A stretch of DNA of 64,000 nucleotides, taken from NCBI GenBank assembly GCA_037482015.1, contig JBBFKT010000002.1, positions 1 through 64,000 of the forward strand, given 5' to 3'. The stretch's first letter is position 1. Each line of letters opens with the position of its first letter. Shown in pieces: positions 44,241 to 54,603 of this stretch. The position numbers and the translations under genes were made by a program. Under the pieces are notes generated by a model. That model had not been told where the DNA came from and did not search any database. It saw only the letters and a program-made list of their open reading frames with translations. The DNA comes from Thermodesulforhabdaceae bacterium. Its GTDB lineage: Bacteria; Desulfobacterota; Syntrophobacteria; Syntrophobacterales; Thermodesulforhabdaceae.

Positions 44241-45269
44241 TTAATAGCCGCTTTCTTCTTCGGTTACAGGGTGGCTAAACAGCTTATAAACCCATAACTG
44301 GTAAGCTATAACCACAGGAACGAAGATTACAACTACTGTGAGCATAATCTTAAGTGTGAGAGGACTCGAAGCAGCGTTGTAGATAGTAAGGCTGTAAGCC
44401 GCATCGAGGCTTGAAGGAAGGAGATTGGGGTAAAGCCCCACAATTCCAAAGAAGGTCACTCCAACAATAATTATGGCTGATGACGCCCAGGCATACCATG
44501 GGTGTTCTTTTTTAATGAAATAAAAAACACCAGCAATTCCACCAAGAACGGCAAGAGGAATAAGAACTGACGGAACGGCGTAAAGAAGGGGTTTTTCGAA
44601 ATAGTTTACATAAAGAGAAGTGTTAAACCATGTGGCAACCAGAAAGCCTGCGGCTACAAGGACAGTGGGAAACCACAGGTTTTTAGCATATTGAAAACCT
44701 CTCTGTCTTAGTTCTCCTTCGGTTTTTACAGCAAGCCAGATGGCTCCATGAAGCAAAAACAGGCAGAGAAACAGGAGTCCACCTAATATGCCGTATGGAT
44801 TGAGAAGATCTACAAGGCTACCTCGGAATATTCCCTCGCCATCAATAGGCACACCTTTGAATATGTTAGCAAAAGCTACTCCAAAGAGTATAGCCGGGAT
44901 TATACTTCCCAGAAATACCCCCGTATCCCATAGCTTCTGCCATCCTGGACTGGTTGATTTATCACGAAATTCTATGCTTACACCTCTTATGATAAGAGCA
45001 AAAAGGATGATCATGAGCGGTGAATAAAAGCTACTGAATAAAACTGCGTAAGCTGTTGGAAAGGCAGCAAAGGTGACTCCTCCAGCGGCAATAAGCCAGA
45101 CTTCGTTTCCATTCCAGAAGGGACCTATTGCATGATAGATTGTGGCGCGTTCTTTCGGGTTTTTAGCAATAAAAGGGCTTAGGGCGCCAAGTCCCAGATC
45201 AAACCCGTCAAGCATGAAATATACTGCCCATAAAAGTCCCCATAGAAAAAACCATATTGAAAGAAGCAT
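44241..45269 (-). CDS. cydB: Cytochrome bd ubiquinol oxidase subunit II
   Basis: 342 residues with eight or nine membrane helices, starting with the family hallmark WFFLWGLLWAVYFMLDGFDLG. FWNGNEVWLIAAGG near 50-63 is also conserved. It partners CydA in a quinol oxidase that reduces O2 to water with high affinity. It is the last gene of the perR-rbr-rub-roo-cydA-cydB operon, 24 bases after cydA. No cydX-type small gene follows before the terminator. In an anaerobe this oxidase protects against oxygen more than it supports growth. Confidence 0.94.
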   Translation of the reverse strand: MLLSIWFFLWGLLWAVYFMLDGFDLGLGALSPFIAKNPKERATIYHAIGPFWNGNEVWLIAAGGVTFAAFPTAYAVLFSSFYSPLMIILFALIIRGVSIEFRDKSTSPGWQKLWDTGVFLGSIIPAILFGVAFANIFKGVPIDGEGIFRGSLVDLLNPYGILGGLLFLCLFLLHGAIWLAVKTEGELRQRGFQYAKNLWFPTVLVAAGFLVATWFNTSLYVNYFEKPLLYAVPSVLIPLAVLGGIAGVFYFIKKEHPWYAWASSAIIIVGVTFFGIVGLYPNLLPSSLDAAYSLTIYNAASSPLTLKIMLTVVVIFVPVVIAYQLWVYKLFSHPVTEEESGY

Positions 45270-45293
45270 TGCTTCCCCTCCCTTGTATTTTTA

Positions 45294-46601
45294 TTAATTT
45301 GCCGCCTCGGGACCTTCTTTGACAAATTTTACTATTAGATATGCGGCAATAATTCCGATAACTGTGTAAAGAACCACAAGCCCAAATAATGAAAAAAGCA
45401 CCTGACTTTTTTCAAGCACAGAAGCGGCTTCGTTTGTCTTAAGGATTCCATAGACAACCCAGGGTTGCCTTCCGACTTCGGTTAATGTCCAGCCGGCTTG
45501 GAGAGCTATGTAGGGGAGCGGGAGAGCAAATAAAAATAGCTTTAGTAGACGAGGATGGTTTTCTATGTTTTTCCTCTTTATCCATCCAATGAAAGCCAGA
45601 ATCGGGAAAAGGAATCCAAGACCTACCATTATGCGAAAAGACCAGAAGGTGATAGCCACAGGGGGACGCTCGTCTTTAGGAAAATCCTTCAAACCTTTAA
45701 CGGTTGCCTTTGGAGAATGGTAAGCTAACATGCTCAGCAAACCTGGTATTTTGCCGATTTCAACGAGATTTCGCTCGTTTTTTTCATCTGGAATTATAAA
45801 TAAATACTGAGGAGCATAATCTCTCGTTTCCCAGAAGGATTCCATAGCTGCAAGCTTTGCAGGTTGATATTTAGCCACTTCAGCCCCGTTCATATGTCCC
45901 TGGATTACCTCCAGAACGGAGAAAATAAGAGCCATACTAACCCCTAATGCGAAGGATCGCTTGAAAAAGTCTATGTGTTGCTTCTTTAGCAAATGATAGG
46001 CGCTTATTGCCATTACGAAGAAACCGGTAAGAATGTAAGAACCGGCGAGAGTATGAAAGATTTCGTGTAAGGCAAAGCTCTGGGTTATAAGAGCCCAGAA
46101 GCTATCGAGTTCTGCGCGATCCCCGCGAATAACGTATCCAACCGGGTGTTGCATCCAAGCGTTTGCTGTAAGGATCCAGAAGGCGGAGATATTGGATGCC
46201 AGAGCCACCAGCCATATGCTCACAGCGTGAGCCTTTGGAGAAAGTCGTTTCCATCCCAGCGCCCATACAGCAATAAAAGTGGATTCAAGAAAGAAAGCCA
46301 CCGAAGCTTCGATGGCAAGAAGAGATCCAAAAACATCCCCAACATATTTGGAATACTTAGCCCAGTTGGTGCCAAATTGAAACTCAAGGGTAATACCTGT
46401 AACTACCCCCACAGCAAAGTTTACCAGAAAAATCTTTCCCCAGAATTTAGCCATGTTACGGTAGGTTTCGTCCCCTGTCTTTACATATTTGGTTTCCATG
46501 AGCGCGATAAGGATGGAAAGTCCGAGAGTAAGAGGGACAAACAAAAAATGAAAGTAAGTTGCTGCGGCAAACTGGAGCCGCGATAGAAATACTACGTCCA
46601 T
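45294..46601 (-). CDS. cydA: Cytochrome bd ubiquinol oxidase subunit I
   Basis: 435 residues, heme-bearing and quinol-oxidising. The N-terminal FAAATYFHFLFVPLTLG carries the heme b595 histidine near 18, HEIFHTLAGSYILTGF near 183 the b558 ligand region, and GRQPWVVYGILKT near 385 is the invariant motif. The Q-loop holds KLAAMESFWET near 248-258 and is short, so this is the bd-S (short Q-loop) type rather than the long E. coli form. It follows roo by 19 bases in the oxygen-defence operon. Confidence 0.95.
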   Translation of the reverse strand: MDVVFLSRLQFAAATYFHFLFVPLTLGLSILIALMETKYVKTGDETYRNMAKFWGKIFLVNFAVGVVTGITLEFQFGTNWAKYSKYVGDVFGSLLAIEASVAFFLESTFIAVWALGWKRLSPKAHAVSIWLVALASNISAFWILTANAWMQHPVGYVIRGDRAELDSFWALITQSFALHEIFHTLAGSYILTGFFVMAISAYHLLKKQHIDFFKRSFALGVSMALIFSVLEVIQGHMNGAEVAKYQPAKLAAMESFWETRDYAPQYLFIIPDEKNERNLVEIGKIPGLLSMLAYHSPKATVKGLKDFPKDERPPVAITFWSFRIMVGLGFLFPILAFIGWIKRKNIENHPRLLKLFLFALPLPYIALQAGWTLTEVGRQPWVVYGILKTNEAASVLEKSQVLFSLFGLVVLYTVIGIIAAYLIVKFVKEGPEAAN

Positions 46602-46620
46602 TTTTCAATCCCTCCCCTGG

Positions 46621-47817
46621 TTAGACAGTTTCTTTGATGCGTTCTCCAAGCTTACGCCCTAGTTCGTAACATTTTTTAAGGGCTTCGTGATCGGGGACAT
46701 ACTGGATTCGTAGAGGTTCCTCTATGATTTGTTCTACTTTCATTTCGGAAAGATATTGAGATATGATTTTAGCCGCTTCGCCGCTCCAGCCGTAGGATCC
46801 GAAGGCAAAACCAATCTTTCCTACAGGTTTAAGCCCCTTCATGTATGTCAGGATATCGGCAATAGTTGGAAAAATGCCGTTATTTATAGTGGGAGATCCA
46901 ACCACAAGTCCTTTAGAATCTAGAAGTTCCGTCATGATGTCACTTCTATGATAAACTTTAAGCGACATGGGAATAGTTTCTATTCCTTCGTCAATCAGCC
47001 CATCAGTTATAGATCTTGCCATTTTTTCTGTGCTGTGCCACATGGTGTCATAGACAACAATGGCTTTTCTCTTAGCTTCCTGGCGACTCCATCGGTCATA
47101 GGCTTCAATGATAGCAAGGGGATTTTTTCTCCAGATAAGGCCGTGATCTGGAGCGATCATGTCGATATCAAGATTCAGTTCTTTAACTTTTGCAAGAAGC
47201 TTCTGTACGAGAGGAGAGTATAAAAGCAAGATGTTGGCGTAGTATTTGGCAGCATGATTCATCAATTCGTCAAATGGAACTTCATCATCAAAGCGAGCGC
47301 TCGTTGCCCAGTGTTGACCAAAGGCATCACTCGATATGAGAAGTTTGTCTTCGGGAATGTATGTGAACATACTGTCTGGCCAGTGAAGCATGCGAGTTTC
47401 GATAAAATGAATTGTTTTTTTGCCTGTCCGTATGGAGTCTCCGGTTTTTACGACTTGATAGGGAAGGTCAGTTCGCTTGAAGTGCTGAACCAGAGCTTTT
47501 TCGCCCATTTCAGAACATATAATCTTTTCGGGCTTGATAGCATCCACTGTCTGAAGGAATGATCCCGAATGGTCCATTTCGACATGGTTTATAACCAGAT
47601 AATCGATCTTATTGGGCTCAACGATCTGACTTATGTGATGAAGCAACTCATTGAAAAAAGGTCCTTTTACCGTGTCAACGAGCGTAATTTTATCGTCCTT
47701 TATGAGAAAAGCATTATATGTTGTGCCTTTGTAGGTTGAATAGCCGTGGAAGTCTCGAATATTCCAGTCTATAGCACCTACCCAAAAAACATCGGGCTTT
47801 ATTTCTACCACTTTCAT
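46621..47817 (-). CDS. roo: Flavodiiron protein, rubredoxin:oxygen oxidoreductase type
   Basis: 398 residues. A metallo-beta-lactamase-like N-terminal domain holds the diiron site: NHVEMDH near 77-83 is the HxExDH motif, with more ligands in MLHWPDSMF and SSDAFGQH. A flavodoxin domain from about 252 (AIVVYDTMWHSTEKMA) binds FMN. Such A-type proteins reduce O2 to water, or NO, with electrons from rubredoxin, whose gene lies 13 bases upstream. Next in the operon are cydA and cydB, so both soluble and membrane O2 reduction are made together. Confidence 0.93.
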   Translation of the reverse strand: MKVVEIKPDVFWVGAIDWNIRDFHGYSTYKGTTYNAFLIKDDKITLVDTVKGPFFNELLHHISQIVEPNKIDYLVINHVEMDHSGSFLQTVDAIKPEKIICSEMGEKALVQHFKRTDLPYQVVKTGDSIRTGKKTIHFIETRMLHWPDSMFTYIPEDKLLISSDAFGQHWATSARFDDEVPFDELMNHAAKYYANILLLYSPLVQKLLAKVKELNLDIDMIAPDHGLIWRKNPLAIIEAYDRWSRQEAKRKAIVVYDTMWHSTEKMARSITDGLIDEGIETIPMSLKVYHRSDIMTELLDSKGLVVGSPTINNGIFPTIADILTYMKGLKPVGKIGFAFGSYGWSGEAAKIISQYLSEMKVEQIIEEPLRIQYVPDHEALKKCYELGRKLGERIKETV

Positions 47818-47829
47818 GTGACCCCCTTA

Positions 47830-48021
47830 TTATTTAGCGGTTGATGGAGTTTCTACGGGTCGAAACATTTTTTTAGATGCTCCACATACAGGGCATTTCC
47901 AATCATCGGGAAGATCTTCAAAAGGGGTGCCCTTGGGAATCTTCCCTTTTCGATCGCCTCGGTCTGGATCGTATATATATCCACAGTTTGTTGTCTGACA
48001 CTGCCATAGCTTAGGATTCAA
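47830..48021 (-). CDS. Rubredoxin with a C-x4-C first motif
   Basis: 63 residues binding one Fe by four cysteines: C8, C13, C43 and C46. The second motif CPVCG is standard, but the first is C-x4-C (CQTTNC), not the usual C-x2-C. This insertion is known in the Rd-2 rubredoxin of Desulfovibrio desulfuricans. It sits just before roo, its expected electron acceptor. A stem-loop upstream separates it from rbr and may set its level apart. Confidence 0.92.
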
Positions 48022-48043
48022 TTTGGCACCTCCTGTAAAAGAT

Positions 48044-48075
48044 AAAACCTGGGCATGTTTTTAAGCCCAGGTTTT
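48044..48075 (-). terminator. Stem-loop between rbr and rubredoxin
   Basis: AAAACCTGGGC (48044-48054) and GCCCAGGTTTT (48065-48075) form a perfect 11-bp stem with a 10-base loop. On the minus strand the stem ends in UUUU and is followed by AUCUUUU. It is a plausible intrinsic terminator or attenuator inside the operon. Confidence 0.7.
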
Positions 48076-48090
48076 GTTGTTGGTTAAAAC

Positions 48091-48672
48091 TTACCAGTTT
48101 TCCCCGAGAAGTTCGAAATAGGCTTTTGGATGGGCGCAAGCCGGGCATTTATCGGGAGCAGTTGATCCTTCATGAATATATCCACAGTTTCTGCATCGCC
48201 AAGTAACCGTAGATTCTCTCTCGAATACTCTCCCAGCTTCTATGTTTGCCACGAAATCACGATATCTCTTTTCGTGATATTTTTCCGCCACGGCGATATT
48301 TCTGAAAACCGTAGCGATTTCAGGAAATCCTTCTTCGTCGGCTATCCTTGCGAATTCAGGATACATCTGGGAATGCTCGTAAAGTTCACCTGCTGCTGCA
48401 GCAAGAAGATTTTCCTTCGTAGAACCTACAACCCCGGCCGGAAACGAGGCTTCGATTGTTACTTCGCCGCCTTCCAGGAAATTGAACAGTCTTTTCGCAT
48501 GTTCTTTTTCTTGGTTTGCTGTTTCTTCAAATATCGCGGCTATTTGTTCATAGCCTTCCTCTCTAGCCTTAGATGCAAAATAAGTGTAGCGATTTCTGGC
48601 TTGAGATTCGCCAGCAAAAGCCGCCAGAAGATTCTTTTCAGTTCGTGTTCCTTTTAGACTTTTCCCTGCCAT
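48091..48672 (-). CDS. rbr: Rubrerythrin
   Basis: 193 residues: a diiron ferritin-like four-helix domain with a C-terminal rubredoxin domain. Iron ligands lie in AAFAGESQARNRY, EETANQEKEHAKR, GELYEHSQMYPEF and VAEKYHEKRYRDF; the rubredoxin part is WRCRNCGYIHEG ... CPACAHPKAYFELL. It reduces hydrogen peroxide in anaerobes. ATG 48672 (MAGKSLKGT) fits an AAGGAGG site; the longer in-frame extension upstream runs into perR and is not used. It overlaps the end of perR by 35 bases. Confidence 0.95.
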   Translation of the reverse strand: MAGKSLKGTRTEKNLLAAFAGESQARNRYTYFASKAREEGYEQIAAIFEETANQEKEHAKRLFNFLEGGEVTIEASFPAGVVGSTKENLLAAAAGELYEHSQMYPEFARIADEEGFPEIATVFRNIAVAEKYHEKRYRDFVANIEAGRVFERESTVTWRCRNCGYIHEGSTAPDKCPACAHPKAYFELLGENW

Positions 48673-49096
48673 GTTTACCATCCTCCTTTTGACTTGGTCG
48701 TTCCTGCCTTTCTTCCTGGGATGCTTTACACTCCGAGCAAAGCCCCCGAAATTCAATAGTCCATTCCTGGATATCGAATCCCCAGGCTTCTTTCACATAA
48801 GCTTTGGGATCTAGACGGGGATCCATCATAATATCTTCTATCTTGCCACAACGGATGCACTGGGCATGGGCATGGAAATGAGGATTACCATCAAAGCGCT
48901 TTTGAGTGCTACCGTGAAGTGTAAGCTTTTGTATGAACCCTTCGGAAGCTAACATTTCAAGGTTACGGTAAACTGTGGCAAGACTTATACGAGGCAAACG
49001 TGGTTTAATCATGGTGTAAAGTTCATCCGCCGTTGGGTGAGTCTTCAAATGCCTTATAGTGTCAAGAATAATTTTTCGTTGTATTGTCATCCTCAT
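48638..49096 (-). CDS. perR: PerR-type peroxide-responsive repressor (Fur family)
   Basis: 152 residues from the ATG at 49096, which has an AAAGGAG site; an in-frame TTG at 49123 precedes it. A winged helix covers 1-60. The structural zinc pairs are CIRC (C80, C83) and CSEC (C120, C123). PerR rather than Fur is indicated by RFD (D69) and D88 in CGKIEDI, where Fur has Glu; H73, H75 and H77 complete the metal site. It leads the rbr-rub-roo-cydAB operon and has a PerR box in its own promoter, so it probably represses the set until peroxide oxidises it. Confidence 0.9.
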   Translation of the reverse strand: MRMTIQRKIILDTIRHLKTHPTADELYTMIKPRLPRISLATVYRNLEMLASEGFIQKLTLHGSTQKRFDGNPHFHAHAQCIRCGKIEDIMMDPRLDPKAYVKEAWGFDIQEWTIEFRGLCSECKASQEERQERPSQKEDGKHGREKSKRNTN

Positions 49097-49128: not shown

Positions 49129-49156
49129 AATTTAATAATCATTATCAAAATGTCAA
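49129..49156 (-). promoter_or_regulatory. Promoter of the perR oxygen-defence operon
   Basis: On the minus strand TTGACA (49151-49156, perfect -35) and TAAATT (49129-49134) are 16 bases apart. Transcription would begin near 49122, about 25 bases before the perR ATG. The PerR box lies between the two hexamers. Confidence 0.7.
49133..49147 (-). promoter_or_regulatory. PerR (Fur-family) box
   Basis: TGATAATGATTATTA on the minus strand matches the PerR consensus TTATAATnATTATAA at 12 of 14 fixed bases, as a 7-1-7 inverted repeat. The overlapping 49128-49146 also matches 15 of 19 bases of the classical Fur box. It sits between the -35 and -10 of the perR operon and also 37 bases before the divergent ABC gene, which it might control too. 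Confidence 0.78.
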
Positions 49157-49183: not shown

Positions 49184-51709
49184 ATGTCGCACAAGCGAAA
49201 TATAACCGATTTTCCCCTTCTCTTCTGGGTTCTTACACGATGCCGATGGCTACAGTTGCTTGCAATTGGGTTAATCTTAATAACCATATTTTTGCGAGTC
49301 CTCCCCTTAGAAATGCAGAAGAAAATCGTAAACATCGCCATTGGGCTTAAGTCCCTTTCCGATCTACTTCTTTATTGCACTTTCTATATTACATCCGTTA
49401 TAGCTGCAGGTCTTCTTAAATATGCAGTGAATGTCATCACAAATTTCATTGGCCAGAGAATACTTTACGAAATACGCACAGCCTTGTTCAACCATGTCCT
49501 TAGCCTCCCTTTGACCTTTTTCAGAAAAAATCCACCTGGAACGGTCATATCATTCCTTATTGGAGAACTTGGCAATATAGGTGAATTTCTCGGTGAAGCA
49601 ATTGCAACTCCCCTTGTAAATATTCTCAGTCTGGCGGCTTTTGCCGGATACATGCTTTATCTTAACCCCCTTCTAGCTGTTGTGAGCTTGGCCATATATC
49701 CTTTTCAGGTCATTGTTATTCCTTTACTTCAAAACAAATTCAACAGATTAAACCAGGAGCGCATGAATATCACCAAGGGCGCCAGTAATTTTGTCGGCGA
49801 AATTATATCCGGGATACACGAAGTTCATTGTAATGCATCTTACAACATAGAAAGCGAAAAATTTAGAAGTTTTTCTAAATCGCTTTTTGAACTTCGTTAT
49901 CGTATGGCAAAAATCAAGTTTTTAATTAAATGGGCTAATAATTTCTTTCAAAATCTGGGTCCTTTTATTCTTTTCTTGTTCGGTGGTTACCTTAGCATCA
50001 AAGGAAGACTTGATTTAGGTGCTCTTGTTGCGTTTCTGTCCACCTATGAAAAGCTTTCTGATCCATGGAAAGAGTTGATAGAATACTATCAAAGTTATCA
50101 GGACGCTAAGGTTCGTTACAAAAGGATTATGGAAACCTTTTCTTACTCTCATGATTTCAAACCAATGCCTTCAGATAGATCTGTTTACGCTCTTTCCGGC
50201 AACATAGAAATGAATGACGTTAGTTTTACCGTAGATCATTCCATACGGATAGTGGATTCTGTGTCCCTTAAGGTTAGCCAAAACGAAAGGATTGCCATTG
50301 TAGGATTTTCTGGAAGTGGAAAAAGCACTCTGATTATGCTCATTGCCCAGCTTTATCCCTACAGCAACGGCCGCATATTGCTTGATGGCAAGGATCTCAG
50401 AGAACTTACCAAAGCTGACATTAGCTTGAATGTAGGTTATGTTTCCCAGTCGCCATTTATTTTCAGTGGAACCATCCTAGATAACCTTCTATATGCCTGC
50501 AATGCCGTGAAAGATATTAGGTCAAAGGTGGATTTCGAAAAGGAGGCGACAGCCTGTGAAGTTCCCTATCCTGGCTACTCAGTTCTTATGGAAGTTATTG
50601 AAAAAGTAGGGCTTGAGGAGGATATCCTCTTGTTAGGTCTTAACTCAAAACTTCAAGCAACCGAAGAGGAATTTGCTAACCTTGTGCTCGCTATGCGTAG
50701 GCACTTTCTTGAGAAAGCAGATCCTGAAGTCTTCTCTCTCATTGAATCCTTTGATGAAAAAAATTTCCTGTCCTACCAGTCTCTCGGAGTTAATCTAGTT
50801 TTTGGTTTTAGTCTGACAACCGATCCCGAAGAGAAGCTTCTGATGGCTCACCCTGGAATATTGGACATTCTGGATAGACTGGGGCTTCTTATTCCCCTTG
50901 CAATGGTTGGACAAACTCTGATCAGAGCCACCATGGAAATATTCAATCAGGATTTAAGAGATGAGTTTTTCACCAAGATAACCCCAATCTCTCCAGAAGA
51001 ATTTCCTATGTTGGGGCGTCTTGCGGAAATCCGGCAGAGCATAAGAGAACTTGATCGAAAAGATCTTTCATTACTTATCGAACTGGCACTTAGATATGTC
51101 CCTGCCGCACATCCTATTATAACTCTTCCTGGTCCTTTTACCGACTATATCGTGAGATGCCGAGATTCTCTAAGAAAATCCCTTGATGAAACTTACAGCC
51201 AGCTTTTTTGCTTCATAGACCCTGCAAGGTTCTGCTGGAAACATTCAGTATTCCAAAATATAATTTTTGGAAGTATTCGAACAGAAATTGCTCACGCAGA
51301 AGAAACCGTCAGGACGGCAGTTCTTGGCACCATAGAAGATCTAGGGATGAAAGACCTGGTTGTTCTTAAAGGGCTCGACTGCCAGGTTGGGGCTCAAGGG
51401 AGTTTCCTCTCTGGTGGACAAAAGCAAAAGTTGTGCCTTGCTAGAACTCTTCTTAAAAAACCATCAATTCTAATCCTGGATGAAATAACCTCTGGTCTTG
51501 ACAATAAGTCTAAGGCAAAAGTTCAAGAGCTTATTAAGCATCATCTGGCAGGTAAGTGCACTATTTTTTCTGTTGTCCATCGTTTGGAAACGGTAAAGGA
51601 TTATGACAGAATTGTGGTAATGAGAGCCGGGAAAATAGTCGAAGTTGGCACTTACGAAGAACTTCTCGAAAAGAAAGGGCATTTTTATGATCTACTCAGA
51701 GGATTTTGA
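49184..51709 (+). CDS. ABC exporter with a nucleotide-binding domain split by a large insertion
   Basis: 841 residues. An exporter membrane domain of about six helices covers 15-310. An NBD follows with Walker A GFSGSGKST (374-382), Q-loop Q422, signature LSGGQ (742-746), Walker B ILDE (764-767) and H-loop H799, all intact. Between 440 and 685 there is an inserted, mostly helical stretch of about 245 residues that I do not recognise. It begins after TILDNLLYACN, and a similar SVFQNIIFGSI follows it. The protein is thus 250 residues longer than normal ABC exporters. The next two genes overlap it, suggesting a dedicated system. Substrate unknown. Confidence 0.82.
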   Translation: MSHKRNITDFPLLFWVLTRCRWLQLLAIGLILITIFLRVLPLEMQKKIVNIAIGLKSLSDLLLYCTFYITSVIAAGLLKYAVNVITNFIGQRILYEIRTALFNHVLSLPLTFFRKNPPGTVISFLIGELGNIGEFLGEAIATPLVNILSLAAFAGYMLYLNPLLAVVSLAIYPFQVIVIPLLQNKFNRLNQERMNITKGASNFVGEIISGIHEVHCNASYNIESEKFRSFSKSLFELRYRMAKIKFLIKWANNFFQNLGPFILFLFGGYLSIKGRLDLGALVAFLSTYEKLSDPWKELIEYYQSYQDAKVRYKRIMETFSYSHDFKPMPSDRSVYALSGNIEMNDVSFTVDHSIRIVDSVSLKVSQNERIAIVGFSGSGKSTLIMLIAQLYPYSNGRILLDGKDLRELTKADISLNVGYVSQSPFIFSGTILDNLLYACNAVKDIRSKVDFEKEATACEVPYPGYSVLMEVIEKVGLEEDILLLGLNSKLQATEEEFANLVLAMRRHFLEKADPEVFSLIESFDEKNFLSYQSLGVNLVFGFSLTTDPEEKLLMAHPGILDILDRLGLLIPLAMVGQTLIRATMEIFNQDLRDEFFTKITPISPEEFPMLGRLAEIRQSIRELDRKDLSLLIELALRYVPAAHPIITLPGPFTDYIVRCRDSLRKSLDETYSQLFCFIDPARFCWKHSVFQNIIFGSIRTEIAHAEETVRTAVLGTIEDLGMKDLVVLKGLDCQVGAQGSFLSGGQKQKLCLARTLLKKPSILILDEITSGLDNKSKAKVQELIKHHLAGKCTIFSVVHRLETVKDYDRIVVMRAGKIVEVGTYEELLEKKGHFYDLLRGF

Positions 51710-52205
51710 AAAACTTCTGATTACCACCTGTTCTTGTGGACTGGATGAAAAGGTCAGTTTGCTGAGAAGAGTGCCAGCCTTTGGGTCAGTTCCTATAGAT
51801 CAGTTGAAAATTTTAGCTTCTCTTTGTCCGTGCAGAACCTATCAGCCTGGTCAATTCGTGTTTTATCAGGGCAATTACGATACAAACGGGTATATTCTTA
51901 AGAGCGGTCGAGTTAGGATGATACGCCATTATAAGGATCGTTCTTTCATCGTTAAAGAGTTAGAACTTGACGAATTTTTTGGTGGCCTTGCTCTCCTTGC
52001 CGACATTAAGAGACTATTTTCAGCTCAGGCTGTCGATTTGTCCAACTGCCTTGTAGTCCCAAGGGATGTGTTCAAAAGATTTGTCGTTCAATTTCCAGAG
52101 GTATCTTTGCGGATGCTCGAGATTATGGTAAAACGTATAGCCTCTATGGAGGATCGGTTTATGGAATTATATGTAGAGGAGTTAAAAGGTGAAATGCTTT
52201 ATTGA
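51687..52205 (+). CDS. Cyclic-nucleotide-binding-fold protein without DNA-binding domain
   Basis: 172 residues. A Crp-like beta-roll is seen (VPAFGSVPIDQLKILA, YQPGQFVFYQG, GYILKSGRVRMI), then FFGGLALLADIKRLFSAQAV in the place of the phosphate-binding cassette. The conserved Arg of the cassette is there, but the ribose-binding Glu is Gly. The long C-terminal helix is present; the HTH of Crp/Fnr is not. It may bind another ligand or act as a partner of the ABC exporter, whose coding end it overlaps by 23 bases. ATG 51687 (MIYSEDF). Its own end overlaps the HD gene by 17 bases. Confidence 0.75.
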   Translation: MIYSEDFEKLLITTCSCGLDEKVSLLRRVPAFGSVPIDQLKILASLCPCRTYQPGQFVFYQGNYDTNGYILKSGRVRMIRHYKDRSFIVKELELDEFFGGLALLADIKRLFSAQAVDLSNCLVVPRDVFKRFVVQFPEVSLRMLEIMVKRIASMEDRFMELYVEELKGEMLY

Positions 52206-52962
52206 TGAGCTTTCTCGGAAGGCTCTTGAGTTTGCCTCCAGATACCAGAAACCTGACTTTTACATTAGATTTGAAGCCGAAGTTGCCAGATCAAGACATC
52301 TTTATTTTACCAATCCTGTTGCGACTCTTGTTAGAGAGTCCATAGCTGAAAAACTTTCACAATGTGAGTGTCTTGGTCATGGGCTCTACCACAGCAGTAG
52401 AGTAGCCTGGGACTGTGCAGCTCTTCTCGACATAGAACTCAAGCAAAGCGGAAGTATGGTTGCTGATAGAGAGCGAATTCTTTTGTTGGGTATTGTCGCA
52501 GGCCTTCTTCACGACATAGCTCGTTGTGAACCAAACCATGCTGAAGCAGGTGCTCGGGAGGCTGCAAGAATCCTTAGAGATTTTCCCTTTACTGAAGAAG
52601 AGATAAGCATAATTTGCCGGGCTATCCGGAATCATGAAGCTTTCAGCCGTCCTGTCCCGTCTATAAACCCGGTTGGACAACTCCTGAGCGATTGTCTCTA
52701 CGATGCTGACAAATTTCGTTGGGGCGTTGATAACTTTACTCATACAATATGGCGAATGATAGATCACCAGAGCCTTTCTCCTCAGGCCTTGATTGAGCGG
52801 TTTCCCTGGGGTATTGATGGCATTAGAAAAATAGCCCAGACATTTCGAACTCCCACAGGGCGACAGTTTGGCCCGGATATTATCGAAAACGGCATAGCCA
52901 TAGGTAAGGACATCTATCAATATCTATTAAAACGTTACGGTTCCACGATAACGCCACCCTAG
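52189..52962 (+). CDS. HD-domain phosphohydrolase
   Basis: 257 residues with the HD metal site: H68, H108-D109 in LLHDIA, a further H117 and H149, and D172 in SDCLYDADK. HD enzymes cleave phosphomono- or diesters, often nucleotides, including cyclic ones. The substrate here is unknown, but the neighbour is a cyclic-nucleotide-fold protein and the pair follows an odd ABC exporter. It starts at GTG inside the previous gene and ends 35 bases before the peptidase gene. Confidence 0.8.
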   Translation: MKCFIDELSRKALEFASRYQKPDFYIRFEAEVARSRHLYFTNPVATLVRESIAEKLSQCECLGHGLYHSSRVAWDCAALLDIELKQSGSMVADRERILLLGIVAGLLHDIARCEPNHAEAGAREAARILRDFPFTEEEISIICRAIRNHEAFSRPVPSINPVGQLLSDCLYDADKFRWGVDNFTHTIWRMIDHQSLSPQALIERFPWGIDGIRKIAQTFRTPTGRQFGPDIIENGIAIGKDIYQYLLKRYGSTITPP

Positions 52963-52997: not shown

Positions 52998-53984
52998 ATG
53001 AATTCCCTGAATGATACCATTACGGCTATTCCTGGCATTCGAGTTGGGCATGCTCATCTTAAGGATGGTTTTCCTTCGGGATGCACGGTAATTCTTGTTC
53101 CCCCTGAAGGAGCTACAGCGGGAGTGGATATTCGTGGGGGAGCTCCAGGAACCTATGGAACTGATTCGCTCGCCCCAATTAACCTGGTTGAACGAGTTCA
53201 CGGGATTTTTTTCAGCGGGGGAAGTGCCTTTGGTCTAGCCGTAGGGGATGGCGTAAGGCGATTTCTTGCCGAACAAAACGTCGGTTTTGACACTGGCTAT
53301 GCTAAGGTTCCCATCGTGGCTGGAGCCATAATTTTCGATTTGGGCGTTAACAGATCGAGCATTTATCCCGATGCTAAACTGGGCTGGGAAGCTTGTATAA
53401 GAGCAACAAACGATCCCTGTAAGGAAGGAAATGTTGGTGCAGGTTTGGGAGCCACAGTGGGAAAACTCTACGGAGTTGCTCAGGGCATGAAGGGCGGACT
53501 TGGGAGCTTCTGCATAAGCACAGACTATGGGCTTTTAGTTGGAGCGCTTGTTGTAGTTAACGCTTTTGGAGATATTTGGGATCCCTGGAGTGGGCATTTT
53601 ATTGCAGGTTGTAGAAAAAAGCAGGATAGCCTGGAACTAGCCCAGGCAGATCGAGTGATCCGCATGACACCTCGACTTAGAGGATTTCCTCAGGGGCAGA
53701 ACACAGTGGTTGGTCTTGTAGCAACCAATGCACGCCTTAATAAAACTCAACTTACCAAGGTAGCTCAAATGGCTCACGACGGTCTCGCCAGAACCATTAT
53801 TCCAGCTCATACTCAATACGACGGTGATACCATCTTTGCTATAAGCTGTGGCAACCTCGAAGACGTAGAAACTTCAGTTGTTGGAGCTCTCGCCGCAGAA
53901 GCGGTAGCTCATGCTGTAGTTCGTGCTGTTAAAAAGGCAAAGAAACTACCAGGACTTCCGTCATTTGAAGACATTATACGGTGA
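52998..53984 (+). CDS. P1 family (DmpA/NylC-like, S58) peptidase or amidohydrolase
   Basis: 328 residues of the N-terminal nucleophile P1 family. TAIPGIRVGHAH opens it, FFSGGSAFGLAVGDGV is near 71, and NVGAGLGATVGKL near 145 precedes KGGLGS, where the chain is expected to cut itself before S170, freeing the catalytic residue. Known members hydrolyse N-terminal D-amino acids, beta-peptides or nylon oligomers. The true substrate here is open. It is 35 bases after the HD gene and may belong to the same transcript. It ends convergent with the SprA-like gene, overlapping by 11 bases. Confidence 0.85.
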   Translation: MNSLNDTITAIPGIRVGHAHLKDGFPSGCTVILVPPEGATAGVDIRGGAPGTYGTDSLAPINLVERVHGIFFSGGSAFGLAVGDGVRRFLAEQNVGFDTGYAKVPIVAGAIIFDLGVNRSSIYPDAKLGWEACIRATNDPCKEGNVGAGLGATVGKLYGVAQGMKGGLGSFCISTDYGLLVGALVVVNAFGDIWDPWSGHFIAGCRKKQDSLELAQADRVIRMTPRLRGFPQGQNTVVGLVATNARLNKTQLTKVAQMAHDGLARTIIPAHTQYDGDTIFAISCGNLEDVETSVVGALAAEAVAHAVVRAVKKAKKLPGLPSFEDIIR

Positions 53985-54603
53985 GAGATATAGAAGTTGC
54001 TTCAGAGGATTGATGATATCCTCCCTTTGATTCAAATGTGTCCGAATAGGCTTCTTTTCCTCGCCTTTTCAAAAGTTCCATCTGAGCTTTGGAGAGTTCC
54101 ATCTGAGCCTTTGCAGCAACCTGGTAATCCTGTCCTGATGGTTGAGACGGTGCTAGGGCTGCTCTAATAACGGTTAACATCTTTTCTATGGTTGCAGACG
54201 GATCATCGGGTATAGGCGAGGAATCGATTGAAACCTCTCCACCGACTATATAAAGGTTACCGTCGGGTCCTCGCTCATACTGATATGTGGGTCCGCCTCT
54301 TACATAGCGGCCTCCAGCCGAAATATGAGCCTGTTCATGGGCTACAACTTCACGTTCCCTCTCTTTAAGTTTTTCTAACTGCCGCCGTTCTTCCTCGGTG
54401 AGTCTTTCCGATCCCGAACCTTCCCTGGTATTCTGGCTTTTGCCTGGTGACATCGTATCTTGAGAAGGACGAACTTTCTCCTCGTCCTTCCCATTTTGAG
54501 CTTTCTTATCTGAGTAATAGGAAGGCTTTATTTGAAGCGAACGCCACCTATCCGGCGTAAAAGATATTGAATTGATAAGCAATAGTCCCATAAGAGACCT
54601 CAA
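53974..54603 (-). CDS. Putative SprA-like metalloprotease (CJM1_0395 family)
   Basis: 209 residues. A charged, low-complexity N-terminal half (Lys/Ser/Glu-rich to about 85) is followed by REVVAHEQAHISAGGRYV, which holds an HExxH zinc motif (HEQAH), and by YVRGGPTYQYERGPDGNLY and GGEVSIDSSP, typical of this family. A C-terminal helix with repeated AKAQMELSKAQMELLKRR closes it. Function is unproven in the family; there is no signal peptide. It stands alone on the minus strand. Confidence 0.75.
   Translation of the reverse strand: MRSLMGLLLINSISFTPDRWRSLQIKPSYYSDKKAQNGKDEEKVRPSQDTMSPGKSQNTREGSGSERLTEEERRQLEKLKEREREVVAHEQAHISAGGRYVRGGPTYQYERGPDGNLYIVGGEVSIDSSPIPDDPSATIEKMLTVIRAALAPSQPSGQDYQVAAKAQMELSKAQMELLKRRGKEAYSDTFESKGGYHQSSEATSISLTV

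Follow-up and report, generated by a model that had tools for sequence, protein, structure and literature searches.

Three genes on the plus strand of a 2.7-Mb, MAG-like assembly run into one another, and they raise the question of whether they form one system and what has been built into the ATPase of the exporter that the first of them encodes. In the window, by which we mean the whole 64,000-nucleotide stretch that was analyzed, an ABC exporter of 841 amino acids (aa) (positions 49184 to 51709) is followed by a 172-aa protein with a Crp-like roll (51687 to 52205) and by a 257-aa HD-domain protein with a GTG start (52189 to 52962). The overlaps of 23 bp between the exporter and roll genes and of 17 bp between the roll and HD genes, reported in an initial annotation, are borne out by the open reading frame (ORF) coordinates. 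The overlapping gene order is also present in the nearest relative, L058, whose roll and HD proteins begin like those of the window and so back both starts. The roll gene starts with ATG at 51687; a longer TTG frame from 51645 is unsupported by the relatives, most of which begin with M-x-S/S-S. Scans for sigma-70 promoters and terminators gave signal at the level of shuffled sequences.

An exporter with a complete but interrupted ATPase

The exporter has a transmembrane domain (TMD; residues 1 to about 320, with ABC_membrane, PF00664, at residues 46 to 287, E 3.6e-34) followed in the same chain by an ABC nucleotide-binding domain (NBD; about 335 to 841), the arrangement of a type IV ABC exporter, and its fold matches that of Sav1866 (Z 30.4, 456 residues aligned), among others. 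Domain order, motifs, and fold are shared with MsbA, Sav1866, and TM287/288, but the window protein differs from MsbA-type exporters in its roughly 250 extra residues of duplicated helical segment and in its partner roll protein. The ABC_tran match (PF00005, E 2.5e-28) is split into two stretches, and the break comes after the Q-loop (Q422) and before the LSGGQ signature (residues 742 to 746); at about 250 residues, its length and place are close to the 245 or so residues first described. The Walker A motif, Q422, LSGGQ, D766-E767 (the latter the Walker B Glu), and the H-loop residue H799 are invariant across 29 relatives, in keeping with the earlier reading of all ATPase motifs as intact. An AlphaFold2 model built with these 29 relatives predicted the insert well (block means mostly 80 to 94) and a normal NBD around it, and the predicted NBD aligned with that of S. 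mutans ComA over 239 of 239 residues at 1.5 Å.

Named exporter classes did not accommodate the protein. Its best NCBIfam model was MsbA (TIGR02203), at 310.4 bits against a curated cutoff of 602, and the genome's own MsbA is another gene, scoring 613.6 bits. Membership of the CydD/CydC thiol exporters was considered because cytochrome bd genes lie nearby, and the scores (189.8 and 160.8 bits) fell below the cutoffs of 435 and 329, respectively. A peptidase-containing exporter of the PCAT or HetC-like kind was rejected, there being no C39 match and the TMD starting near residue 10.

The insert as a duplicated helical segment

The insert had been called unrecognized, with a proposal to search it by profile-profile methods. 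Searches for known domains and structures agreed with that description to the extent that no known regulatory domain was matched, but its origin could be found in the ATPase itself. Profile-profile comparison matches three copies with one another and with ordinary exporters, which shows the insert to be no foreign domain but the product of tandem duplication within the ATPase, of the stretch that starts at the Q-loop and takes in the helical subdomain. The segment that follows the Q-loop is present three times, at residues of about 412 to 487 (u1), 517 to 600 (u2), and 671 to 740 (u3). Copy u1 (positions 50417 to 50644, plus strand, as for all parts of the gene) begins with the true Q-loop, Q422. 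A linker helix with an invariant R505 (residues 488 to 516; 50645 to 50731) leads into u2 (50732 to 50983), which has a pseudo-Q-loop without Gln and the invariant residues N537 and G541. The remainder of the insert (residues 601 to 670; 50984 to 51193) consists of helices that include the invariant H643 and a repeat of the linker helix, with an invariant R660, before u3. The last unit, u3 with LSGGQ (residues 671 to 760; 51194 to 51463), is the canonical helical subdomain. The stretches FIFSGTILDNLLYA, FLSYQSLGVNLVFG, and FCWKHSVFQNIIFG are alike in the three copies, and behind each come helices and a Gly that does not vary (G485, G576, and G730); the Gln is missing at the Q-loop place in copies 2 and 3.

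Comparisons between the copies with hhalign gave E values of 2e-9 (u2 and u3), 8.5e-7 (u1 and u3), and 2e-5 (u1 and u2). With the linker helices included, residues 488 to 640 matched residues 641 to 760 at an E value of 8.9e-13 and a score of 75.9, the maximum in 60 column shuffles being 18.2, and the repeat had no match in other parts of the ABC protein. A profile of 22 ordinary exporters, taken from relatives, matched residues 400 to 760 three times (E 3.6e-17, 1.5e-11, and 2e-4). Compared singly with ordinary exporters, the copies gave E values of 6.6e-12 (u1), 1.9e-5 (u2; score 31.0 against a shuffled maximum of 20.1), and 1.9e-20 (u3). By these comparisons, the extra 250 or so residues amount to one and a half additional helical-subdomain units with a pseudo-Q-loop, placed before the unit that bears LSGGQ. 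Searched alone, the insert had no match of its own in Pfam or NCBIfam and nothing below an E value of 2 among PDB structures with Foldseek; the top VIA-align Z score, 4.3, permits no conclusion under that tool's own caveat. A known domain was rejected as its identity.

ABC ATPases of the SMC/Rad50 type, which are not transporters, also carry a large insert between the two ATPase lobes. It stands at an equivalent place, but it is a coiled coil there and a copy of the helical subdomain here. We know of no other exporter in which the helical subdomain, whose rotation is the power stroke, is duplicated in place.

A Crp-like roll without the cyclic-nucleotide signature

The second protein shares the cNMP_binding roll of the CRP/FNR proteins (PF00027, E 7e-15), but its 172 residues gave no Pfam match to a helix-turn-helix (HTH), so that it does not qualify as a CRP/FNR transcription factor; its relatives are mostly 163 to 205 aa long. 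The replacement of the canonical Glu by Gly and the lack of an HTH, both pointed out in the initial annotation, are features of the family: at the Glu position, Gly is the majority state (40 of 67 sequences) and Glu is found in 15 of 67. The position of the phosphate-contacting Arg holds F/Y or R/W/A, depending on the alignment, and is not conserved. None of the 67 sequences was seen to carry Glu and Arg together, which unlike in CRP/FNR are not kept as a pair. Judged by its residues, the roll protein is thus without the canonical cNMP signature of the phosphate-binding cassette.

The nearest precedent is HetC of Nostoc PCC 7120, an ABC exporter of the PCAT kind whose Crp-roll binds the noncyclic ligand ppGpp and is required for function (PMC10986499). 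In both cases, an ABC exporter goes with a Crp-roll that does not sense cAMP, but in HetC the roll is fused at the N terminus together with a C39 peptidase, whereas the window roll is a separate gene and its exporter has no C39 match; the sections of that report that we saw do not describe an NBD duplication. In the literature searched, no description of the present exporter family was found.

The exporter and roll genes as a conserved pair

Relatives were drawn from 60 related genomes and from a GTDB genome scan limited to the best 80 of 196 loci, giving 95 distinct loci, of which 89 extend at least 600 nt past the ABC gene and 77 are complete; genes were called in six frames, and many of the MAG contigs are broken. 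The roll gene is the next gene on the same strand in 78 of the 89, usually overlapping the ABC gene, and L088 makes a 79th, missed in the first count since its ABC frame is split. Up to 10 of the 89 keep the insert without an adjacent roll gene (e.g., L127, L128, L132, and L137), so the insert may act without one. L065 and L035, like these four, encode relatives with the insert and no adjacent roll gene, and in L132 and L137 a gene for RsbW directly follows the ABC gene. The insert was found in 27 of the 395 genomes sampled across the phylum Desulfobacterota and is therefore more than a chance occurrence. Among the best 80 of 196 loci, titles name Desulfobacterota or vaguely labeled Delta- or Proteobacteria MAGs, and the named contigs closest to the window come from MAGs of Syntrophobacterales; PLSDB plasmids gave no match to the insert. 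On the strength of gene order and sequence, the exporter and its altered roll make up a conserved two-gene unit that is tied to no named system; to this extent, the initial annotation, which described an unusual ATPase and took the HD gene as a third member, is supported.

Distribution of the HD gene

The same cannot be said of the third gene. It does encode an HD-domain protein, as first stated (PF01966, E 1.9e-6, a plain HD domain), and the metal ligands H...HD...D and a further His are conserved in 31 aligned rows, placing it in the HD phosphohydrolase superfamily. It had also been taken, with the other two, as one system, a view to which ABC relatives occurring mostly without the other two genes would be contrary; mapped neighborhoods show this for the HD gene and not for the roll gene. 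Of the 60 related genomes, 44 have one copy of the HD gene (a single match in 43 of them and two pieces at contig ends in the other), and its distribution does not follow that of the ABC gene. With ABC presence called at E < 1e-150, 26 genomes have both, 10 the ABC gene only, 18 the HD gene only, and 6 neither, so that HD occurs in 18 of the 24 genomes lacking the ABC gene and is missing from 10 of the 36 that have it. In unlinked genomes, it adjoins a gene for a peptidase of family S58, often after an ORF of 82 to 87 aa, with an Fmt-like gene in some. In the window, this peptidase (DmpA/P1-like; PF03576, E 8e-48) lies at 52998 to 53984 on the plus strand and is the gene that constantly accompanies HD. 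Given this distribution and these differing neighborhoods, with S58 as the constant partner, we do not count the HD gene, a neighbor in this clade, as a core member of the unit.

Both units are joined only in the window's clade, in the order ABC, roll, (82-aa ORF), HD, S58. The HD gene follows the ABC and roll genes in 10 of the 77 complete loci, spanning deeply diverged ABC proteins, and in Desulfacinum-type genomes, HD is gone and S58 is still near the ABC gene; linkage of the two units is of long standing but not obligatory. The small protein before the HD gene is conserved (L024:5637-5885, minus strand; L025:5747-5995, plus; L154:4699-4959, plus) and had no Pfam match; in unlinked genomes, it is part of a cluster of Fmt-like gene, small ORF, HD, and S58. 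Facing the S58 gene, at 53974 to 54603 on the minus strand, is a conserved protein with an HEQAH stretch that by eye looks SprA related; the five HD-linked loci nearest to the window all retain it.

Divergent from the ABC gene, at 44241 to 49096 on the minus strand, is an O2-defense block of CydB, CydA, FprA flavodiiron protein, rubredoxin-like protein, rubrerythrin, and PerR/Fur, named by reading of the sequences. FprA and/or rubrerythrin and PerR recur, whole or in part, in the loci with a linked HD gene, as well as in L064 and L070, and the PerR/rubrerythrin/FprA(/CydAB) block is absent from the remaining family. These genes hint at a role in oxidative stress in the window's clade. In the gap that separates the ABC gene from the PerR/Fur-like gene, positions 49134 to 49146 read AATAATCATTATC, by eye similar to at least half of a Fur/PerR box.

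Partner-switch genes beside a sister subfamily

Built from 94 ABC proteins by a quick method under LG+G4, a tree places the window protein in a group with HD or neither partner (subfamily I), the other groups having a SpoIIE-HAMP phosphatase, an RsbW-like kinase, and a STAS protein beside the exporter and roll genes (subfamily II). Such genes are found in 37 of the 77 complete loci, with RsbW and STAS both present in 32 and all three in 21; a single run of SpoIIE, ABC, (roll), RsbW, and STAS occurs in 5 of the 37. None of the 77 has both HD and a partner switch. The set of HATPase_c_2, STAS, and SpoIIE-HAMP domains beside subfamily II is complete, and in a control of 318 kb of other DNA from the same genomes, the profiles used for these genes detected neither SpoIIE nor STAS and a single weak RsbW match. 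The gene set is that of the full RsbW/RsbV/SpoIIE modules but is linked here to the ABC-roll pair, and no sigma factor gene was recognized among the genes listed for these neighborhoods. Several genomes carry one paralog of each subfamily, e.g., Desulfoferrobacter suflitae (L069 and L129). Subfamily I has no linked partner switch; on a contig other than that of the ABC-roll pair, the window genome's only SpoIIE lies about 2.3 kb from its one strong RsbW match (L188; G000:C8:42680-45979).

How the pair may work

We lean, with confidence a little better than even, toward a homodimeric type IV exporter of the MsbA/Sav1866 fold that the Crp-roll protein gates by way of the enlarged helical subdomain. 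The extra helical units would form a platform, for docking or as a lever, on the subdomain; the roll protein would bind there and permit or prevent the rotation by which the subdomain closes the ATP sandwich, so that export would be turned on or off in answer to a ligand other than cAMP or to a protein partner. It is the gating, the ligand, and the export substrate that we infer. That a Crp-roll can work for an ABC exporter with a ligand other than cAMP is shown by HetC (PMC10986499). For the sister subfamily, the signal would come from the SpoIIE-RsbW-STAS switch. A bolder form, in which the tripled subdomain is a receiver platform for a ligand-blind roll adaptor and, in one subfamily, RsbW, STAS, and SpoIIE control transport directly instead of a sigma factor, is doubtful, and we put it forward as speculation.

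The duplication might instead be a structural part of transport, coupling NBD to TMD or meeting a membrane or periplasmic-adaptor partner, with the roll protein regulating something else. An insert that follows the Q-loop, the element contacting the coupling helices, and that is kept even where no roll gene adjoins fits this idea, which we nevertheless consider unlikely: the roll gene adjoins the ABC gene, with overlapping frames, in almost every other locus, and no adaptor or outer membrane gene is constant nearby in the loci surveyed. Quite unlikely, in our estimate, is that the pair, instead of controlling an exporter, is an output of partner switching in which the RsbW kinase has the roll as its decoy or target and the ABC protein works as a sensor or transceptor. 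The frequent switch genes beside subfamily II speak for it, as does the closeness of the one SpoIIE and one strong RsbW gene elsewhere in the window genome, but the window's own subfamily has no linked switch. The model first offered, that the roll protein senses a nucleotide-like ligand destroyed by the HD enzyme and that the three form one switchable exporter, is very unlikely. It draws on the gene overlaps here and in the nearest relative, on the conserved metal ligands, and on the linkage to diverged ABC proteins in some loci, but the two genes show no association across the 60 genomes, an unlinked HD gene stays with S58 and the small ORF, a whole sister subfamily has no linked HD, and positive evidence for a hydrolyzing off-switch was not found. 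Overlap alone was misleading, the HD gene behaving as a mobile neighbor and not as a third subunit.

We return to gating by the roll protein for what the family would then mean. ABC ATPases are among the most constrained of folds, and in-place duplication of the helical subdomain is therefore notable; many sulfate-reducing and related bacteria carry a pump with this subdomain tripled. Should the roll protein dock on the extra copies, the family would offer a testable case of posttranslational exporter gating from the subdomain itself and possibly a target of partner switching other than a sigma factor. The pairing of such a pump with a roll protein that lacks the usual cyclic-nucleotide pocket points to a mode of pump control that has not been described.
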